Below, one piece after another: positions 4,906-19,958 of a stretch of DNA of 20,106 nucleotides. Under the pieces are notes generated by a model. That model did no database searches, was not told the DNA's origin, and saw only the letters and a list, made by a program, of their open reading frames with translations. The position numbers and the translations under genes are program-made. Every line of letters starts with the position of its first letter. Position 1 is the stretch's first letter. This DNA comes from an uncultured Pirellulaceae bacterium (GTDB lineage: Bacteria > Planctomycetota > Planctomycetia > Pirellulales > Pirellulaceae), in contig CAKQWG010000048.1 in assembly GCA_934278005.1 (NCBI GenBank), forward strand, positions 1 through 20,106, written 5' to 3'.

Positions 4906-5566
4906 ATTCCGCTGACGGACGACTCAACAATAACTTCCTGAGCTCGTTGGTTCATTGGGGTGGAGCTTGGGAACAACGGTTAGAAAACGACTGGTAAGAG
5001 AAAGGGGTTTTCCCGGGCTCGCAGCATCGTCCCATTCCCATTCCCATTCCCATTCCGCATCTACGTTAGGTTTGAGTTATGCAGGCCGCGTCACGTGGGG
5101 GCCAGGTTCGCGATCAAACGCCCACGCGTACGTCCGCAGCGAGCAGTGACGTAACAGCGCCGGCAGGCTAAATAATCAAACGCCGAACCGCAGGAGACTG
5201 CCGCACTTGAGGCTACCATGCGTAAGGCGCGGCACGATGGAGCACCACCCCGTCAACCCGCCGTTAGTCGCGGCCTGCGCAGGTGAAGGCACTTCACAGC
5301 ACTCCACTTGTCTGCTGGAAAGGCTTTGGTCCTTCATTGCAACTAGGGATGTTGTTGTTAAGCAAGCCCTAAGGCATTCGGCGCAGAGAACTGAACGCGC
5401 AGGAGGCGTTGGGCAAGCCTTTAAGATCAAGCCCAAGCGTGAAACTGCAAGTGTGTAACTGATTGCCAACAAGAAGCTGCGTATCGGGAGTACGAGCGAG
5501 ACGATGCAAACCAGCCAGAACAACCGGCTGCACCCCAAAACGGCGTTTCACCCTTGTTATCCTTAG
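4906..5566. other. 661-bp stretch without a convincing gene
   Basis: Open frames here on both strands (for example 5207-5458 plus, 5176-5538 minus) overlap each other, lack clear ribosome binding sites and give low-complexity or Cys/Ser-rich products. The stretch contains a CCCATT hexamer array (5031-5056). An 11-nt match to the hairpin arm of the 69-bp repeat (CGTAACAGCGC) lies near 5150-5161. The minus strand 3' end of tRNA-Leu borders it on the right. Confidence 0.6.
5031..5056. repeat. Hexamer microsatellite (CCCATT)4
   Basis: Four exact CCCATT units followed by CC. A simple sequence repeat in noncoding DNA; in the plus frame it would encode alternating Ser-His, in an ORF I regard as spurious. 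Confidence 0.9.
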
Positions 5567-5650
5567 TAGCTGAGGCGGGGGTCGAACCCGCACGAGCTTT
5601 ACGCTCACAGGATTTTAAGTCCTGTGTGTCTGCCATTCCACCACTCAGCC
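5567..5650 (-). tRNA. tRNA-Leu (anticodon UAA)
   Basis: A complete cloverleaf can be drawn on the minus strand. The acceptor GGCTGAG pairs with CTCAGCT (one G-U) and the discriminator is A. The D-arm region is TGGTGGAATGGCAGACAC. The anticodon stem ACAGGA/TCCTGT encloses the loop CTTAAAA with anticodon TAA. A long variable arm with GAGC/GCTC identifies a class II tRNA, and the T arm is GCGGG-TTCGACC-CCCGC. CCA is not encoded (CTA follows). Total 84 nt. It decodes UUA and probably UUG. Confidence 0.96.
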
Positions 5651-5791: not shown

Positions 5792-6238
5792 TCAATCTGG
5801 CTCGGGTGCGGTAAGACTCCACGGCACGCATCCGGAAAATTCCATTTGAATGCACGATTCCCTGACGAAGTGCTGGTCTACAAGCGCTAGCCTATCGTGA
5901 AACGCAACGGTAAAGGAATCAAAGACCAATTCGCCTGTGCCGGCGCCAGTCCCGCCTACGATCTCACCAACCAGATGAAACCAGCCGCCGTACAGATGAC
6001 TGCCAACCGATTCTCGAGCCAGATGGTACACCTCTGCAGGAAAATCTAAATCTATGCCGAGCTCGACAGCCAGGTTGCGGAATCCAACTGGCAGCAAGTC
6101 CGGCGAGCAAGCGAACCAGTTTGTGCATGGCATGCATTCACAGCGCACGGGCGGGGCAGTTCGAATAGCCTGGTAGATCGCTCGCGTCGCCAGAGCGTCG
6201 TAGCAGATCGATAAGCCAAGAAGCGGCCGCTTCCTCAT
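5792..6238 (-). CDS. Conserved hypothetical protein with CxCxxC motif
   Basis: 148 residues with a short metal-binding-like cluster C33-x-C35-x2-C38 in PVRCECMPCTNWF. Then come LPVGFRNLAVELGIDLDFPA, EVYHLARE and SHLYGGWFHLVGEIVGG, a pattern I associate with a small uncharacterised bacterial family in which a CxCxxC(x)N head is followed by 'ELGID..KPAEVYH' and 'LYGGWFH'. The Cys cluster suggests zinc or another metal; no catalytic motif is visible. It starts 6 nt after the stop of the small membrane protein gene, so the two are probably co-transcribed. The last 40 residues look less typical. Confidence 0.72.
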   Translation of the reverse strand: MRKRPLLGLSICYDALATRAIYQAIRTAPPVRCECMPCTNWFACSPDLLPVGFRNLAVELGIDLDFPAEVYHLARESVGSHLYGGWFHLVGEIVGGTGAGTGELVFDSFTVAFHDRLALVDQHFVRESCIQMEFSGCVPWSLTAPEPD

Positions 6239-6244
6239 TGAAGT

Positions 6245-6421
6245 TTATCCATCAACCGCCGTCGCCGGTGCAACTATGTGCCATACGGCAACGGTCGCGA
6301 TCGGAACGAGGATTAATCGACCGATGAACCATGCAACTTGATCGTTCGGTAGGTCAGAAAAGTACCCCCATACGACGGCGATCAACAGTCCAATCACAAA
6401 CGCCGGAATATAATTTTTCAT
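6245..6421 (-). CDS. Small two-helix membrane protein
   Basis: 58 residues from ATG 6421 (MKNYIPAFVIGLLIAVVWGY). Two hydrophobic segments are separated by a short polar loop (SDLPNDQVAW), giving a hairpin in the inner membrane. The frame stays open to 6469, allowing a 74-residue version. GGAG lies 11 nt before ATG 6421, a long spacing, so the start is uncertain. It is immediately upstream of the CxCxxC gene and likely in the same operon. Function unknown. Confidence 0.6.
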   Translation of the reverse strand: MKNYIPAFVIGLLIAVVWGYFSDLPNDQVAWFIGRLILVPIATVAVWHIVAPATAVDG

Positions 6422-6520
6422 CTCGGCAAAAACTCCGTCATTTAAGACTGCCCATCGCACAGGCCGCATGTCTCGTCAGCCAACTTGGCTGCCGGGCGGC
6501 TCAGAAACCGCTGTCGAATT

Positions 6521-6550
6521 AGTCTAGCACGGAGCCCGCCGGCAGTGCAA
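6521..6550 (-). promoter_or_regulatory. Candidate sigma-70-type promoter for the membrane protein/CxCxxC pair
   Basis: On the minus strand TTGCAC (6550-6545) is separated by 18 bp from TAGACT (6526-6521). Transcription would begin near 6513, about 90 nt before ATG 6421. It lies in the gap after fdhA and correctly oriented. Based on pattern only. Confidence 0.35.
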
Positions 6551-6603
6551 GCTACGCACCCTTTCAGAGTTCCATCCGGGCCAACTTCACACCTGCAGAA
6601 AAC

Positions 6604-7788
6604 TTAGGTCAGCAGTCCATTGGGGTCGATGACAAATTTTTTCGACGAACCGGCACTGAACTGTGCGTATGCCTCGGGGGCTTGGTCAATCGTGATGACT
6701 TCGATATTCATCACCGCAGACAGATCGATGCGATTCCACAGGATGGCTTGCATCAATTCGCGGCTGTAATTGCGAACGGGAGCCAGGCCAGTGGTCAAGG
6801 TCAACGACTTGTTCCACGCCGCGCCAAAGGTAAAGTCCAGCATGCCGCTCTGAGCGCGCGGATGCGGACTGCCGGGGTCTCTGCCTACATAGATTCCGAG
6901 TACGCCGATGCTGCCACCTGCGCGAACGACCTGAATCATTGAATTGAGTGCGGCCTCGGGATGCTCTTGGTCGCTGTGTTCGCCCAGTCCATGAGCTTCA
7001 TAGCCCACGGCATCCACGCCGCAGTCGACTTCAGGCACACCCAGGATCGCGTCGATTTGATCGACCAGTGGAGTGCCGCTGGCAAGGTCTGCGACTTCGT
7101 AGCCCGCCGCTTTCATGACCTGCAGTCGCTCGCTATTCTGATCGCCGATGATGACGCAAGCAGCTCCCAGCAAGCGAGCGGCAGCGGCCGCACATCGCCC
7201 GACCGGTCCAGCTCCGGCCACGTAGACCGTGGATCCGGGTTTGACTTTGGCACTCACGCAGCCGTGGTATCCCGTGGGCAGCACATCGGACAGCAACGCC
7301 AAGTCCAACATCCGCTGCATGGCTTGCTCGCGATCGGGAAACTTGAGCAGAGCGAAGTCGGCGTAAGGCACCAAGCAGTACTGCGCCTGACCACCCTGCC
7401 ATCCGCCAAGGTTGAATCCGTAAGCACCCAGCGGCCCCTTGTCGTTGACCCGCTGGCAAATCTCCGGATGCTGCGTGGTGCAATTGCGGCAGCGGCCGCA
7501 GCAGACATTGAATGGGACGGACACAACGTCACCAACGGCCAACAGCTCAACGTCTCGGCCAACTTCGACGATCTCGCCAGTGATCTCGTGGCCCAGCACC
7601 ATCCCGCGGGGCACCTTGAATCTACCATGGTAAATGTGCTGGTCGCTGCCGCAGATATTTGTGGCGATAACCTTCACAATAACGGCGTGCTCCAGTGTCT
7701 TGCCGCGAAACTCGCGCCTGGGTACTGGCAGATCTACGACTGCTAAATTCCTCGTACCGGCGTAGGTGACGCTAAGATTCGTAGACAC
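6604..7788 (-). CDS. fdhA: Glutathione-independent formaldehyde dehydrogenase, zinc MDR family
   Basis: 394 residues, close in length and sequence to Pseudomonas putida formaldehyde dehydrogenase, which oxidises formaldehyde to formate with NAD+ without glutathione. Visible: TNICGSDQH (catalytic zinc Cys), GHEITGE, the structural zinc cluster CCGRCRNC plus a fourth Cys (HPEIC), the ADH signature VPFNV, a Rossmann loop VAGAGPVGR, GDQNSERL at the adenosine ribose, and the C-terminal SSKKFVIDP. The long insertion typical of FdhA is present around EVDCGVDAVGYEAHG. The start is GTG at 7788; the Shine-Dalgarno is weak (GAAAG). It is a single transcription unit by spacing. It likely detoxifies formaldehyde in the cytoplasm, but related enzymes use other aldehydes or alcohols. 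Confidence 0.9.
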   Translation of the reverse strand: MSTNLSVTYAGTRNLAVVDLPVPRREFRGKTLEHAVIVKVIATNICGSDQHIYHGRFKVPRGMVLGHEITGEIVEVGRDVELLAVGDVVSVPFNVCCGRCRNCTTQHPEICQRVNDKGPLGAYGFNLGGWQGGQAQYCLVPYADFALLKFPDREQAMQRMLDLALLSDVLPTGYHGCVSAKVKPGSTVYVAGAGPVGRCAAAAARLLGAACVIIGDQNSERLQVMKAAGYEVADLASGTPLVDQIDAILGVPEVDCGVDAVGYEAHGLGEHSDQEHPEAALNSMIQVVRAGGSIGVLGIYVGRDPGSPHPRAQSGMLDFTFGAAWNKSLTLTTGLAPVRNYSRELMQAILWNRIDLSAVMNIEVITIDQAPEAYAQFSAGSSKKFVIDPNGLLT

Positions 7789-7824
7789 GTATGAATACTT
7801 TCAATTGTTGATGAACTGTGTGGT

Positions 7825-11953: not shown

Positions 11954-12871
11954 CTAGGGCTCGTGCCACGTCGCGCGGTCGGAGGTGTGCCGCCTGAGCT
12001 CACCCACCGGCATGTGGTGCTTGCCAAACCTAATCGACTCAACGTTCTGCACCTGGATGGGCAGCCGTGGTGGAAGATGCACGATGCGCCCGTCATGATT
12101 AAATGCACTGGTGCCGTTGGTAGAATCCAGGTCTTCTAGCGTGAGGCTGTCAGTTTTACCAACCAGTCGTGCATGGAACGAAGACACGGTATGGTCGTTG
12201 ATGCGAATTTCGCACTGGTCGCTACGTCCAATGAAAACCACGCGTTGTTGACGCTCCGCCTCTGGAAAGAACTGGCTTGGCACCATCAGTCGTTTATCGC
12301 GCCCGAGAATGATCAAATCGCGCGGCGTGATATGTGCAGGCTTTGTCAAGCGGACAAAATTCACATAGGTCCCATTGGTCGACTTGAGATCGCGCAGAAT
12401 CACTTTATCGCCGCGACGCATCACCGAGCAGTGCACGCCCGAGATCGTCGGCAGGTCTATCACGACATCGCAGTGCATGTCTGATCCGACAATTAGAGTC
12501 TCTTCGTCGAGCTGCTCTGCGATTGTGCTGCGGCGACCACCGCGATCTGCGCTTCGCGATTGATTGTTCTGTAGTTCAGTTCGCAGTTGTGTGTCGTACA
12601 CCGCACGCCTCTCGGGCCGCAACAAGCAGATTTTGGCGGCCTCGATCTCATTTAGCAAATCTTGACCGCGTTGTTCATGTTGATTGATCCCCAACCGTTT
12701 GACGTGTGCACGCTGCCGGTCAGCCGCATTGCGAATAACTTCGGCATTCTGTTCGAACAGGCGCACGCCCAGCAGCCGATAGTGCGACGGAGGCTGTTCC
12801 TCAGGTGGAATGCCTAACCACAAGTGGTACGCATCGTAGTCGTCCATAGCTTCAGTTCCGGATTCAAACAT
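11954..12871 (-). CDS. J-like domain plus two FHA domains
   Basis: 305 residues. Residues 10-98 start [20 protein letters not shown] and continue YRLLGV, with helices ending [16 protein letters not shown]; this is the planctomycete J-domain-like module lacking the catalytic HPD tripeptide. FHA1 (about 125-198) has G129-S130, S144, H147 and STNGT at 164-168. FHA2 (about 210-285) has GRS at 215-217, S230/S231, H233 and STNGT at 250-254. Both keep the residues that bind phosphothreonine, so it should read phosphorylated partners. ATG 12871 overlaps the end of the Hsp70 gene by 8 nt (ATGTTTGA), so translation is coupled; ATG 12847 is a second option. The pairing suggests a chaperone adaptor that directs the neighbouring Hsp70 to phosphoproteins (inference). 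Confidence 0.88.
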
Positions 12872-14819
12872 CTAGCACCGTCTGTAGTTCTCGCGCTTCG
12901 GTCAAAAAGTCGCTCGCTTGTGCGGCCACCAACCCGGCGGCCACAGATTCGCGCCCCAATACGATCCAGGCGTGATCGAGCAATCGCATGGAGTGTTCCC
13001 AGGCCATTTTCAATTGAGCCAATTGCCCGTCGATTTCCACGCGTTCCTGCAATCGTTGCGTGCGTTGATGTTGCTTTTCCAATCGCTGAATCAACTGTCT
13101 TAGCGTATCGATCTCCTGCTGCGTGCGCTCGATCAAGCGGTGCGTTTGAACGGCGCCCGCCGGCGGCTCCATCTGCCCGCAATGCCGGCCGATAAAGCTA
13201 TACAGCTCGTCTAAGCGACTAATGACTGCGTCTTTATCGGTATGATCCGCCAAGCGAATTGGGCTGGGCCGCTGCACTACGGGCGTTGCTGCGTCGTCGC
13301 TGTGCGGATCAGCCGTTGGACTCAGTCTGGCGGTCCAGACGTCCAATGATTCGAGCGTCGAATAACCATCGCGACGGATCTCAACATAGGCGGCTGTATT
13401 GTCACGCGCAAGTTTAGCGGTTACCGAAATAGTCCCGTTGGCCGCGTAGTTACAAATGACTTTGATCCCCGATCCCTTCGGAAGCGGTGTATCGATTCTA
13501 ACTAAACATTCGCCCAACAACGTACAAAAATCGGGGTTTTCGCTCTCGCCTTCCAGCAGCGGCACTCGCGCGTTGCGCTGACCGTCGCGAGAAGTCACAA
13601 AGCTGTAGACTCGCGACGCGGGCAACTGGGTATTGCGAGGGATAAGAATTTTATTGACTCTTGTCTTGGTAGCCGCGTCGGTGCCGCGAACGCCTAAGCT
13701 ATGCGCATTGACGTTGACGACGTTAAATCGGGCCGATGCATCCAGGAAATCATCCTGCAAAGTGGCCGCGTAGAGCGCCGCGCCATGAGCGATCAATTCA
13801 TCGGGGTTTCCGGCCAAGCGGGGGACTAAACCTGACAACGCTCGCGCTTTATCGGCGACAATCGGAATGCGACTAGAGCCGCCGACCAACAGAAATTGAT
13901 CGATCTCGTGCCATTCACAGCCCGCGGTACGAATTACGTCATGCGTAGTGGCCAGTGCGCGGTCGACCAGCGGTTCGATCGCATCTTCGAACTCCGCGCG
14001 TCGCAGTTCGAACTGGACGTGCAGTCCCTCGGCTTGGAAGTCAACCTGCACGCTCGCACGGGCAGACAGAGCGTGTTTCAATTCCCGAGAGAGTTTCCAC
14101 AGGTGCTGCATCTGCAAACTATCGCGTCGCGGATCGACTCCAAACTGTGCGATACAACGGTCGGCGATGAGACCGATGATCCGTTGATCAAAATCGCGAC
14201 CGCCCAGATGGATGTCGCCATCGGTTCCCAAAGCGCGAAAGGTGCGGTCAACAAATTCCAGCAGGGTGACATCGAACGTACCGCCCCCCAAATCGAAGAC
14301 CAGCAACCGCCGCGCGCGATCCCCCGGTTTCGAGTCGACCATCATCTCGTGGCCCAGCGCGATTGCCGCCGCCGTAGGCTCATTGATGATGTCGAGCACC
14401 TCGAGTCCGGCCAGCTGTGCGGCCTGCTGCGTAGCGGTTCGCTTGCGTTCGTCGAAGTACGCCGGCACAGTCACGACGGCCGAGCGGACGTCGCCGTAAT
14501 TCGATCGCACACTGCTCAGCAGGTGGCGCATCAGAAACGCGGTCAACACTTCGGGAGGGACTTGCGTGCCGTGGATTTCGCGGCTGTAGTAGGCTTTACC
14601 GATGTCGCGTTTGAAGGCTTCGGCTAGCCCTGCCGGATCGGCCAAGCCCAGCTCGAGGGCATTTTCGCCAAACACGATATGCGGGCCAAAATAGATCGCG
14701 CTGGGAATCAAATGCTTTCCGGCTCGACCGCTGACCCCGCGCGGCTGTCCGCGACCATCCACGACCGACGCCAAACAGGTTGTCGTCCCCAAGTCCAAAC
14801 CTAGGCCAGCGTGTTGCAT
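12864..14819 (-). CDS. Hsp70 family protein, divergent DnaK paralogue
   Basis: About 651 residues. The nucleotide-binding domain (1-355) has all ATPase signatures: [11 protein letters not shown] (phosphate 1), [40 protein letters not shown] (phosphate 2) and [13 protein letters not shown] (adenosine). The beta substrate-binding domain (about 372-480) keeps [22 protein letters not shown] and [11 protein letters not shown]. The interdomain linker is not the usual DVLLLD, and the C-terminal helical lid is replaced by a poorly conserved stretch plus a coiled coil (560-625). No grpE or canonical dnaJ adjoins it, so it is a specialised rather than housekeeping chaperone. TTG 14822 precedes ATG 14819 in frame; I prefer ATG, though neither has a good Shine-Dalgarno. 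Confidence 0.92.
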
Positions 14820-14870
14820 CAATCAATATTTCAGTTGAAGGTTGGTGTTACAGTTTCACGAAAGTCCGCC

Positions 14871-14996
14871 GCGCGCAATCAGCCGCAGGGCGTTAGCCCC
14901 GGTTGGCCCGCGCGCAATCAGCCGCAGGGCGTAAGCCCCGGTTGGCCCGCGCGCAATCAGCCGCAGGGCGTTAGCCCCGGTTGGCACGCGCGCAAT
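14871..14996. repeat. 39-bp tandem repeat, three copies plus a stub
   Basis: Units start at 14871, 14910 and 14949; a 9-nt stub starts at 14988. The unit contains AATCAGCCGCAGGGCGTTAG followed by CCCCGGTTGG and a GGGC-GTTA-GCCC hairpin. Copy 2 differs by one base (GTAAG for GTTAG). It lies 52 nt upstream of the Hsp70 start and would be in its leader if transcription starts near 15150-15200. The length, a multiple of three, keeps frames open on both strands, which explains spurious ORFs there. Confidence 0.95.
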
Positions 14997-15277
14997 TTCA
15001 TTTGATTCTAATCCAACCCCATCAGCCACCCACCCTGATACAACATTCCACTTACCAGTGGTCGACAACTGCAACATAACAGCCGGACACCGAACTGAAC
15101 CAATCCTGATCGACGCCGACGACGTCCAAATCCGAAAAAACACCGACGATTGCAGAATAACGATTTAGTCGTATAAACGGATATTTAAAACGGAAAGGCA
15201 ACCGGGGCTAACGCCCTGCGGCTGATTGCGTACGCGACAGTCCGGGGTGAATGCAGGCGGGATGTTGGGGTGGGCGG
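14997..15277. other. Rest of the gap upstream of the Hsp70 gene
   Basis: The 455-bp gap (14823-15277) has no gene. Besides the repeats it contains an AT-rich island at about 15150-15195 with TATAC-like elements on the minus strand; that is the best place for a promoter of the Hsp70/FHA pair, but no clean -35/-10 pair is visible. Confidence 0.5.
15199..15230. repeat. Inverted solitary copy of the 39-bp repeat core
   Basis: 32 bases that are the exact reverse complement of part of copies 1 and 3 of the array at 14871-14987. With the array it forms an inverted repeat whose loop is about 210 bp. Confidence 0.95.
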
Positions 15278-16421: not shown

Positions 16422-18317
16422 ATGACGCCAATGCCTCAATTCAGTTCCGGTTGTTCGCTTGCCAGCGAGCTCTTAGCAGCCATTGCGCGCAGCAAGACCA
16501 TCGACGAATTCCGCGAACAGGCGCTGGCTGCCGTGGGCGATCAGTTTGGTCAAGCTCGCGTGGCTTGGGTGCACCAACAAGGTGCGCACTGGGAAGTGGC
16601 TGGTTCGGCTGGTTCGCTGACGCACCTGCCCATCGAACTAGCCGCCACGGCCGGTGAACACATGAGCGTGCTCAGCGCTGAGGGCTGGCTGGCCGTGCCC
16701 GTGGCTGGACGCTTGCAACCCCCTGAAGTGCTACTGCTGAGTCCGGCCAATGTGGTCGACGCCGACGAAGCGGAGGCCATGGGACACATCCTCCGCAGCG
16801 GCATTGTCATCGCTCAGGATCATTCCGAATTGCAATCCCGCGTCGAGCAGTTGCAGACGCTGCTGCAGCTGGCGGCCGATTGGCAGCACAGCCACGATCT
16901 GAGCGAACTGTTAAACAATATGGCGCTCGCGGCCGCGCGGGTGCTGCACGGCGATCGGGCGAGCATCTTTCTGTGGGATAAAGCGGCCGGACAATTGGTG
17001 GGCCATCCAGCCATGGGCGTGGAAGGGGCGGCGCTGCGCATTCGCGATGATCAGGGTATCGCAGGACAAGTTCTCAAAAGTGGACAAGCAGAGCGCTGGG
17101 ACGCGACGGGCGACCCCGATGCGATCAATGCCAAAGTCGGCCGCCAGTTAGGCTACGTGACGCGCTCGTTGGTGGCCGTGCCGCTGCTCGATCGTCGCCA
17201 TCGGCCGTTGGGGGTGTTCGAAGTTCTCAACCACCGCTCGGGGCAGTTCTCTGCCGATGACGAGCGATTTCTAGCGGAGTTAGCCCGGCATGCGGCGGCA
17301 GCCGTGGAGAACACCCAGCACATCGCCTCGCTGATCAAGAGTCGCGATCGACTGGTGCAAAGCGTTTCGGAATCGCTGCAGCTGATCGGTAACTGCCCTC
17401 AAATCCGCGCCCTGCGCGATACGCTTGCCCGCGTGGCACCTACCGAGTTAGCGGTGCTGATCCTCGGCGAAAATGGCACGGGCAAAGAGGTAATCGCTCG
17501 CAGCTTGCACCTGCAGAGCAACCGCCGCGACCAGCCCTTTGTGGCGGTCAACTGCGCCGCTATTGCGGAAACCTTGCTCGAGAGCGAACTGTTCGGTCAT
17601 GAGAAGGGGGCATTTACCGACGCCGTCAGCCAGCGGGCGGGGAAGTTTGAACTGGCTTCCGGCGGAACCCTGCTGCTGGATGAGATCGGCGAGATGAGCA
17701 CCGCTGGGCAGGCCAAGCTACTGCGCGTGTTGGAGGACAAAGTGGTGGTGCGCGTGGGGGGGAGCCAACCCATTCAAACCGACGTCCGCGTCATTGCGGC
17801 CACCAATCAGGACTTAGTCAAGCTGGTGCGCGAAAAGCGGTTCCGCGAGGACCTCTATTTTCGTTTGAACGTGGTGACTTTGCAATTGCCGCCGATGCGC
17901 GAGCGCGGCGAAGATGTGATCGTGCTAGCGGAGCATTTCTTGCAGCAGTTTGGGCATCAGATCGGGCGTCCTCCGCCGACGCTCTCGGCCGCCGCGCGAC
18001 GACGCCTGCTGGCTCACCCCTGGCCCGGCAACGTCCGTGAGCTGCGAAACCTGATGGAACGCGTAGCCTACTTAACTAGCGGATCGGTCGTCGACGAATC
18101 CGACTTGGCCTTCGTGCTGTCGCCGCTGTCGGCCGGCGACATCGCCCAGGTGCCCGCCAACTTAGCGCTTTCCGATGCCACGGCCCAGTTTCAGCGGCAA
18201 TACATCGCCCGTCACGTAGAGTCGTCCTCGGGCAATCTCGCAGCGGCCGCCAAGCAGCTGGGGCTGCACCGCTCTAACCTTTACCGCAAAATGCAGCAAC
18301 TGGGCATGAGCGAGTAG
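16422..18317 (+). CDS. Sigma-54-dependent transcriptional activator with GAF sensor
   Basis: 631 residues, a bacterial enhancer-binding protein. The N-terminal 130 residues look like a degenerate GAF-like sensor. A clear GAF domain (about 145-305: RVLHGDRASIFLWD, RSLVAVPLLDRRHRPLGVFE) follows. The AAA+ domain has Walker A GENGTGKE (349-356), the sigma-54 contact loop GAFTDA (396-401) and Walker B LLLDE (D420, E421); the later NVRELRN and DLYFRLNVV are typical. A Fis-type HTH ends the protein (AAAAKQLGLHRSNLYRKMQQ). There is no response-regulator receiver domain, so it responds to a bound small molecule or protein rather than phosphorylation. ATG 16422 follows GAGAAG; ATG 16431 is an alternative. 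The downstream protease gene is a plausible target, unproven. Confidence 0.95.
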   Translation: MTPMPQFSSGCSLASELLAAIARSKTIDEFREQALAAVGDQFGQARVAWVHQQGAHWEVAGSAGSLTHLPIELAATAGEHMSVLSAEGWLAVPVAGRLQPPEVLLLSPANVVDADEAEAMGHILRSGIVIAQDHSELQSRVEQLQTLLQLAADWQHSHDLSELLNNMALAAARVLHGDRASIFLWDKAAGQLVGHPAMGVEGAALRIRDDQGIAGQVLKSGQAERWDATGDPDAINAKVGRQLGYVTRSLVAVPLLDRRHRPLGVFEVLNHRSGQFSADDERFLAELARHAAAAVENTQHIASLIKSRDRLVQSVSESLQLIGNCPQIRALRDTLARVAPTELAVLILGENGTGKEVIARSLHLQSNRRDQPFVAVNCAAIAETLLESELFGHEKGAFTDAVSQRAGKFELASGGTLLLDEIGEMSTAGQAKLLRVLEDKVVVRVGGSQPIQTDVRVIAATNQDLVKLVREKRFREDLYFRLNVVTLQLPPMRERGEDVIVLAEHFLQQFGHQIGRPPPTLSAAARRRLLAHPWPGNVRELRNLMERVAYLTSGSVVDESDLAFVLSPLSAGDIAQVPANLALSDATAQFQRQYIARHVESSSGNLAAAAKQLGLHRSNLYRKMQQLGMSE

Positions 18318-18335: not shown

Positions 18336-18446
18336 TGATGGACTAAGGCCGCTTGGAGTCTGAGCTTACGTTATGGCTTCGGCCGCGCGTGAGCACCGGT
18401 GGCTGCGTGGCATTATCGCAGAAATTTAGGGAGTAGATCGATTAGT

Positions 18447-19958
18447 ATGAAACGGAACTCATATCCAGCCGGGCAACTTCCTAGTGGTTTCCCGTTGCTG
18501 TTTGACTCATGGCGGGCCCGCCTCGCACGCTGCCAGCTGAGGGCCTGCGTCGCAGTCTTGAGCGCGGCCTGCTGCCTGCCGGTTGTTGTAGTAGCTCAGG
18601 AGGCTGTGCTTCAGCCAGATACCGTGATTCAGCCAGCTACCGTGATTCAGCCAGCTACCGTTGCTGAGGCTGCGGCTCAGCAGCAGGCCCCTGTTTCCGC
18701 TCAAGCGGTGACTTCTTCCCAAGAACCGACTTCCTCTCAAGCGGCGACCGATGAGCCTGCGCCGGCGGAGCAGCTAGAATCGCCTGCCGTAGAATCGCCT
18801 GCGCTAGAATCGCCTAGTGAGCCGGCTGGCAACGAATCGAGCGGCAAGCAGCCTGCCGCGCCGCCACACACGGCGATTGAAAAGTCGCCCGATGCGGCAG
18901 CTGAAAAGTTATCTGAAAAGTCCGCTGATGCGGACGATGAGGCGCAGGCGGCACAGCCTGCAGCTAATAAGCCCGGTTTGGGGCCTGCGCTGGCTCTGTC
19001 GCGAGCTTTCCGCGAATCGGCGCAAAAAGCGCTTCCCACCGTGGTGACCGTTTTCTGCCGCACCAAAGACGCCAGCGCCGCCAATCCAGTGCTGGGCATT
19101 ATCGGTGGAGAGCGGGCGCAGAAGTTCGACAGCGTTGGTTCGGGAGTGATCATCAGCGACGATGGCCTGATCCTCACCAATCACCACGTTGTGGCCAACG
19201 CCGAAGTTATCGAGGTGCGTCTTCAGGACGGACGACAGTTTCGCGCGGAGAATCCCAAGTCGGACCCTCAAAGCGACGTAGCTATCGTCAAGATCAACGT
19301 TCGCGGACAGCTGCCTGCGGCCGAGATCGGGAGTTCGGATGACCTCCACGTGGGCGATTGGGTGATAGCTATCGGCAGCCCCTTCATGATTGAATCCTCG
19401 GTCAGTGCGGGGATCATCAGCGGTACCGGCCGCTACCAGACACTCTCACGCGACGTCAAGGGACAGTTCTTGCAAACCGACGCAGCTATCAACCCAGGTA
19501 ACTCCGGCGGTCCCCTACTGGACTTGGATGGACGTGTAGTCGGCATTAACACGGCCATTTCTTCGCGCACCGGGGGTTTTGAAGGAATTGGGTTTGCCAT
19601 CCCGATCGATCGCGCCATGTGGATCAAGAGCGAGTTGATGCAGTACGGCACCGTCCGCCGCGGCTATGCTGGTCTGCGGGCCTCGAGCGTCCCGTATGAG
19701 CTCGCCCGCAAGCTAGATCTTCCGGAGAATTCGGGAACGATGGTCAACAGCGTGGTATTTGATCGCCCGGCCGCCAAGGCCGGACTGCTGCCAGGAGACG
19801 TGATTGTCAGCCTAGCCGGTGCCCGCGTGCAGTCCAACGCCAGTTTCGCTGAGCTGGTGCAGCAGTCGCCCATCGGGCAACCCCTACCCATCACCATCAT
19901 TCGAAATGGCGAGCGCGTCGAGCTGCAGTTAGAACTAGTGGCCGATCCCCGCAATTGA
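18447..19958 (+). CDS. HtrA/Deg-type serine protease with one PDZ domain
   Basis: 503 residues from ATG 18447. An upstream GTG (18399) keeps the frame open, but the sequence from M18447 has a basic n-region and a hydrophobic core (ACVAVLSAACCLPVVVVAQE) suited to a signal peptide, though with a long n-region; GGGAG lies 13 nt before the start. A Pro/Ala/Glu/Ser-rich linker of about 120 residues with short tandem repeats follows. The trypsin-like domain has a catalytic triad H247 (TNHHVV), D277 (DPQSDVAIVKI) and S353 (NPGNSGGPL). A single PDZ domain (about 405-500) holds the GLLPGDVIVSLAG loop. It likely degrades or processes damaged envelope proteins in the periplasm. Family normal length is 350-480; the long linker is unusual. 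It is downstream of the sigma-54 activator by 129 nt. Confidence 0.95.
   Translation: MKRNSYPAGQLPSGFPLLFDSWRARLARCQLRACVAVLSAACCLPVVVVAQEAVLQPDTVIQPATVIQPATVAEAAAQQQAPVSAQAVTSSQEPTSSQAATDEPAPAEQLESPAVESPALESPSEPAGNESSGKQPAAPPHTAIEKSPDAAAEKLSEKSADADDEAQAAQPAANKPGLGPALALSRAFRESAQKALPTVVTVFCRTKDASAANPVLGIIGGERAQKFDSVGSGVIISDDGLILTNHHVVANAEVIEVRLQDGRQFRAENPKSDPQSDVAIVKINVRGQLPAAEIGSSDDLHVGDWVIAIGSPFMIESSVSAGIISGTGRYQTLSRDVKGQFLQTDAAINPGNSGGPLLDLDGRVVGINTAISSRTGGFEGIGFAIPIDRAMWIKSELMQYGTVRRGYAGLRASSVPYELARKLDLPENSGTMVNSVVFDRPAAKAGLLPGDVIVSLAGARVQSNASFAELVQQSPIGQPLPITIIRNGERVELQLELVADPRN
18611..18672 (+). repeat. 18-bp tandem repeat inside the protease linker
   Basis: An 18-bp unit encoding QPATVI is repeated from about 18613, followed by a partial copy. 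A second set of 15-bp units encoding LESPA/VESPA lies at about 18774-18814. Both sit in the low-complexity linker and probably arose by replication slippage. Confidence 0.8.

Follow-up and report, generated by a model that had tools for sequence, protein, structure and literature searches.

The Hsp70 gene and its partner

A 20,106-nt stretch of contig CAKQWG010000048.1 (positions 1 to 20,106) of an uncultured Pirellulaceae bacterium, called the window here, carries side by side on its minus strand a gene for a divergent Hsp70 and a gene for a protein with a J-like domain and two FHA domains, as an initial annotation of the sequence had noted. Ahead of the Hsp70 gene lies a gene for a protein with a degenerate FHA domain (FHA*) and a membrane segment (Table 1). 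The first two genes appear to specify a conserved, rewired Hsp70-J-like pair, and this view is well supported by sequence: the gene linkage is conserved, residues have changed on both sides of the Hsp70-J contact and the second FHA domain retains its binding residues.

The 8-nt overlap reported between the two genes exists if the partner starts at its first ATG (12871), and is replaced by a 16-nt gap if the second ATG (12847) is used; the database copy, P0001, is 297 aa long and matches the second start. Among the relatives of the locus, L001 has the same 8-nt arrangement and L002 a 55-nt gap. Homologues that bear organism names are planctomycete, as are most of the named relative loci, among which Peribacteraceae- and Nealsonbacteria-titled records also occur.

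Table 1. Positions of the module's features in the window
Feature	Positions	Strand	Remarks
Hsp70, subfamily without Arg167	12864..14822	minus	652 aa from TTG 14822, 651 aa from ATG 14819
Asp144 of Hsp70, at the DnaK Arg167 position	14391..14393	minus	652 aa numbering
Hsp70 linker F-N-V-V-N, replacing V-L-L-L-D	13713..13727	minus
Hsp70 C-terminal helices, residues 529-650	12870..13235	minus	651 aa form; behind poorly ordered tether; from the structural model
J-like-FHA-FHA protein	11954..12871	minus	305 aa; 297 aa from ATG 12847
J-like domain without HPD	12572..12847	minus
Val57-Lys58-Arg59, where DnaJ has His33-Pro34-Asp35	12695..12703	minus
FHA1, about residues 117-190	12302..12523	minus	Ser130 at the phosphate-binding Arg place
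FHA2, about residues 204-285	12017..12262	minus	Arg216, Ser230, His233, Asn252 retained
FHA* and C-terminal membrane segment	15278..16261	minus	no pseudokinase domain

Membership of the Hsp70 superfamily is clear (Pfam PF00012, 302.3 bits against a gathering score of 20.6). Identification as a canonical DnaK was rejected, with 295.5 of 648 and 288.7 of 822.55 bits at the cut-offs of two NCBIfam models on which a canonical copy, L207, scores 967.8 and 919.6 bits. HscA was also rejected (274.8 of 708.55 bits); the family models compared were those of DnaK and HscA, with no HscC model among them and no named HscC in the tree. At the places of DnaK Arg167, Gln378 and Asp393, the J-contact residues expected of a DnaK equivalog, the window Hsp70 has Asp, Tyr and Asn. 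Its linker, F-N-V-V-N, bears out the earlier description of it as non-standard, the form in most Hsp70s with Arg at position 167 (R-type) being V-L-L-L-D-V-T-P-L-S-L-G or near it. The tail had been described as a coiled coil in place of the lid. In the structural model the lid is diverged or replaced and sits on a loose tether, because a short helix (492-499) is followed by a helix-free gap (500-528) in which the predicted local distance difference test score (pLDDT) is below 50 at 504-514, and because the structural alignments shown end near residue 502. Replacement or divergence of the lid thus stands, with the shape corrected to a loosely tethered helical bundle, which has four helices between 529 and 650.

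The J-like fold of the partner is indicated by profile comparison, which matches DnaJ (1bqz, E 0.0014) and DNAJC3 (2y4t, E 0.0028), and by predicted helices that match the J fold (mean pLDDT 88.9). The domain scores 12.5 bits on PF00226 (DnaJ), below the cut-off of 27.8, and a weak match at E 1 or better is found in 16 of 32 members; the 50 matches shown by a fold search with the J-like part were all FHA or FHA-bearing proteins, with no J protein among them. As the initial annotation had it, the His-Pro-Asp (HPD) motif is missing: no HPD occurs in the first 110 residues of any of the 86 rows of alignment A3, the window included. In its place stands V-[KR]-x (V-K-R in the window), with Val57 in 86/86 rows and Lys or Arg at 58 in 85/86. 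DnaJ His33, Pro34 and Asp35 align with Val57, Lys58 and Arg59 in the profile alignment. PF00226 loci from the same genomes have a J-type HPD in 14 of 16 cases.

Two stretches of the partner match the FHA model (PF00498, 101.7 bits against a gathering score of 20.7). The phosphothreonine-binding site of FHA domains consists of Arg, Ser, His and Asn. Both domains had been thought to have it intact, which holds for FHA2, where all four residues are present (Arg in 76 of the 86 rows) and phosphothreonine binding is predicted, and does not hold for FHA1, with Ser130 at the Arg place and Arg in 3 of 86.

Gene linkage and the Hsp70-J contact

In a rapidly built tree with 107 Hsp70 rows, the window Hsp70 falls in a clade of ten (window, L001, L002, L123, L125, L126, L058, L124, L127 and L128; SH-like approximate likelihood ratio test, SH-aLRT, 98*). 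The FHA*-membrane gene is upstream of the Hsp70 gene on the same strand in all ten, overlapping it by 1 nt in L124, L125 and L126. A J-like-FHA-FHA gene lies no more than 1.3 kb away in five of them (window, L001, L002, L125 and L126); L127 has an FHA-FHA gene in which a J-like domain was not detected, L058 a divergent J-like gene, and L123 a match to J-FHA some 26 kb off in its genome. Matches to FHA* at E <1e-12 come from 13 distinct loci, 12 of which adjoin an Hsp70; at the remaining one, L022, the open reading frame (ORF) reaches the contig end.

For a wider count, Hsp70s were taken from loci chosen by Hsp70 searches. Among the genome searches of the analysis, one had its places read to E 2e-94 plus six lower and another 62 of its 69 places; three of them scored at most 8, 8 and 3 candidates per genome. 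Removal of 11 duplicates and six ORFs without the NEP motif (five of them subfamily members by score, none with a J-like neighbour) reduced 202 Hsp70 ORFs to 185. With the subfamily defined by a profile score above 400 bits, a J-like gene is present no farther than 1.3 kb from 47 of the 153 subfamily Hsp70s, as against a single one of the 32 with lower scores (Fisher P 6e-4). The lower-scoring exception is L255, whose residue 167 is Gly and which the profile splits; this locus had been retrieved because both genes were on it. The figure for Arg167-bearing Hsp70s is therefore 0 of 31. FHA genes at the same distance accompany 10/153 and 0/32, a difference that is not significant (P 0.21). Tandem subfamily Hsp70 genes, one of about 520-570 aa and one longer, with no J-like neighbour, occur at L131, L136, L138, L139 and other loci.

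In a sample of 149 genomes of the phylum, a J-like match (E 1e-12) was found in 12 and an Hsp70 match of at least 468 bits in 16, with up to 8 candidates per genome scored; this cut was set after the list had been viewed, and some of the 16 have Ser or Gly at 167. Ten genomes have both, and in all ten the genes are adjacent (hypergeometric P 4.5e-10). Occurrence of the adjacency in more than one genome had been set beforehand as a check, and the pairing does recur across the phylum.

Passages of PMC8215388 describe DnaJ His33 as touching the DnaK linker at Leu391, and Asp35 as touching Arg167 and Gln378, and passages of PMC13012618 likewise give Arg167, Gln378 and Leu391 as contacts of HPD. 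According to the latter, DnaJ D35N is a suppressor of DnaK R167A, a non-functional variant, so position 167 and the HPD Asp can change together. Grouping the Hsp70s by profile score provides a non-circular test of position 167, and 31 of the 32 low scorers have Arg there, as against none of the 153 high scorers. With rows grouped by residue 167, position 378 is Gln in 33/33 R-type Hsp70s vs 3/149 with Asp or Glu at 167 (D/E-type), which mostly have Tyr or His, and position 393 is Asp in 33/33 vs 31/149. Linker residues L390 and L391 are also altered in the D/E-type. Of six charge shifts listed, only that at position 144 of the window Hsp70 is fully reversed, and there the result is circular, the rows having been grouped by that residue.

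By count, the J-like side covaries strongly with position 167. Both residues can be read in 55 of 56 adjacent pairs listed, some of which duplicate other loci in part (L097, L112). Where the Hsp70 has Asp or Glu, the Pro34 place of the J-like domain is Lys or Arg in 44 of 49 pairs and another residue in 5; where it has Ser, Gly or Ala, that place is Gln or His in 6 of 6 (Lys or Arg in 44/49 vs 0/6, Fisher 1.6e-5). Because the Hsp70 has changed at the positions that contact HPD, a contact that was rewritten, not merely lost, is suggested, and for the same reason the initial annotation's view of the J-like domain as tethering rather than stimulating the ATPase seems too cautious.

The upstream gene and phosphorylation

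The upstream protein of L001 (580 aa) and of L002 (622 aa) has a pseudokinase, FHA* and a membrane segment, membrane segments having been predicted by a simple hydropathy scan. The kinase domain of the relatives looks like a pseudokinase, because the Asp of the HRD motif is Asn in all 22 rows with a kinase region in the 23-row alignment A5; the DFG Asp is retained in the same 22. The window protein misses L001 residues 18-248, and the kinase domain is therefore deleted here; the window gene is apparently what remains of a pseudokinase-FHA-membrane gene. Its FHA domain is labelled FHA* (degenerate) because Arg is absent from the binding place in all 23 rows of A5, which have Phe, Tyr, Leu or Gln. 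In L124 an FHA-membrane protein (6153-7817) has a trypsin-like peptidase match barely below the cut-off (27.3 of 27.6 bits).

The co-encoded kinases assumed by the initial annotation are thus lacking in the window module, and the relatives offer a pseudokinase. The proposed link to phosphorylation does draw support from the FHA2 residues, from the upstream pseudokinase-FHA-membrane gene of the relatives and from kinase-Hsp70 fusions elsewhere. Two such fusions have a Ser/Thr kinase, in L141 (7640-10303) with HRD and DFG and in L145 (7236-10034) with HRD and with DFG not matched by the pattern. A 2559-aa protein of L048 (8378-16054) joins kinase, J-like, FGE-sulfatase and 3-keto-disaccharide hydrolase domains, and in L240 and L244 FHA genes flank the Hsp70-J-like pair.

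Some 455 nt separate the Hsp70 gene from the FHA*-membrane gene, and they hold a 39-bp tandem repeat (3.3 copies, 14869-14996) and a fourth copy on the opposite strand (15197-15232). Beside the module, as in L001, are a divergent sigma-54 activator with a GAF domain (16422-18317) and a putative serine-protease-like gene, named by reading (18399-19958). The window also contains a tRNA-Leu (TAA) gene (5566-5650, minus strand) and a 69-bp tandem repeat (1-192, 2.8 copies).

Interpretation and comparison with known systems

The reading favoured here, with a probability of about 0.5, is that the locus may represent a second planctomycete Hsp70-J system beside the canonical DnaK-DnaJ, with a rebuilt docking site and a tie to the membrane and to phosphothreonine signalling. 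The J-like domain would dock on the Hsp70 at the usual J-domain place, through a contact in which V-[KR]-x, in place of HPD, would face the Asp or Glu that stands at position 167; Gln378 and the linker are changed as well. The FHA*-membrane protein would keep the Hsp70 at the membrane, and the J-like-FHA-FHA protein would couple it, via FHA2, to phosphothreonine-bearing partners or clients, which the Hsp70 would bind and release using ATP. It is from sequence that we infer docking, ATPase control, membrane recruitment and phospho-selected clients. A broader proposal, tentative and with somewhat less than an even chance of being right, is of an Hsp70-J system that is orthogonal: the HPD contact would have been rewritten on each side, with opposite charge at 167, the J-like domain would have spread over many proteins, and the Hsp70 would be coupled to Ser/Thr phosphorylation and the membrane.

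Several observations weigh against this favoured reading. A J-like gene within 1.3 kb is lacking for 106 of the 153 subfamily Hsp70s, many of which form tandem Hsp70 pairs, and within the window's own clade L124 and L128 (a contig of 4850 bases) yielded neither a J-like neighbour nor an intact FHA one. Inversion of charge over the whole interface had to be rejected, since E217, a J contact, does not separate the R-type (n=33: 19 Glu, 11 Arg) from the subfamily; nor is the change at Asp481 distinctive, as 30 of 33 R-type rows also have Asn there. Placed on the tree, where 58 rows carry both traits, the covariation comes down to 2-3 independent contrasts on starred branches, with which significance is unreachable. 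FHA1 has no phosphate-binding Arg, and the physical docking is deduced, not observed. Finally, genes for HPD-type J proteins, sought with a pattern whose first version was weak (2 ORFs) and whose better version found 17 ORFs, lie within 1.3 kb of 1/153 subfamily Hsp70s, most likely the one in L168, which alone among the listed loci chosen by Hsp70 holds such an ORF, and of 0/32 others.

This last count bears also on the possibility that the J-like domain serves as a simple, Pam16-like tether or inhibitor, which would keep the FHA domains near the Hsp70, perhaps paired with an HPD-bearing J protein, and leave the HPD pocket unused. Loss of HPD is what such a domain would show; helix II is predicted to continue across the HPD position (H43-60), like that of P34A in simulations described in part of PMC13012618, and the places of DnaJ Y25-K26-R27 are mostly A-A-D. 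However, a tether need not bring about the changes at Arg167, Gln378 and the linker of the Hsp70, and an HPD-bearing partner is hardly ever encoded nearby, although one encoded in another part of the genome could still act; a tether or inhibitor is considered unlikely. It is rather improbable, too, that the Hsp70 is no folding chaperone and serves as an ATP-driven scaffold or switch in kinase-FHA signalling, for example in control of the membrane pseudokinase, a role in keeping with the pseudokinase-FHA-membrane gene immediately upstream in L001 and L002, the kinase-Hsp70 fusions and the replaced lid. That the genes are mere neighbours with no shared function is very improbable: the many subfamily Hsp70s that have no J-like gene close by, and the wide range of ORF sizes in which these genomes carry J-like domains, would fit, but the lack of any J-like neighbour among the 31 Arg167-bearing Hsp70s and the upstream FHA*-membrane gene in all ten members of the clade would not.

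HPD is called universally conserved in a passage of PMC13012618, and HPD and the Arg167 pocket are both regarded as universal in Hsp70 systems; a natural lineage that has altered both sides would help to tell which contacts J control of Hsp70 requires. If the favoured reading is true, an Hsp70-J pair free of cross-talk with DnaK-DnaJ could be supplied, and the FHA and kinase links would make a case of phosphorylation-steered chaperone action in bacteria. No description of this pair was among the matches listed in the literature surveyed (titles, abstract starts and passages, with few subscription journals covered).

Compared with DnaK-DnaJ, the system here has altered HPD, Arg167, Gln378 and the VLLLD linker, has a replaced lid and scores below the NCBIfam DnaK cut-offs. 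In the HscC system, HscC carries Arg167 and DjlC carries HPD. Pam16, a J-like subunit of the mitochondrial import motor, has no HPD and stands beside an Hsp70; it has no FHA domains and pairs with Pam18, and mitochondrial Hsp70 retains the canonical pocket. The partner described here is like Pam16 in being an HPD-less J-like domain beside an Hsp70, and unlike it in its FHA domains and in the altered pocket of its Hsp70.

The GTPase-centred conflict systems of bacteria, planctomycetes included, have HSP70, GrpE and FNIII-DnaJ fusions, as set out in part of PMC7159879, and so resemble this locus in encoding an Hsp70 near J-bearing proteins; those systems are built on GTPases, and no search of the window module for GTPase or GrpE genes was made. 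E. coli HscC, with the tail-anchored DjlB and DjlC, is described in passages of PMC8215388 as a specialised Hsp70 with its own J partners and a suggested action at the membrane. The Hsp70 of the window would likewise be a specialised one, with its own J-like partner and a suggested place at the membrane. In the HscC system, by the same passages, the anchor is on the J protein, whereas here a different protein, with FHA*, bears the membrane segment.
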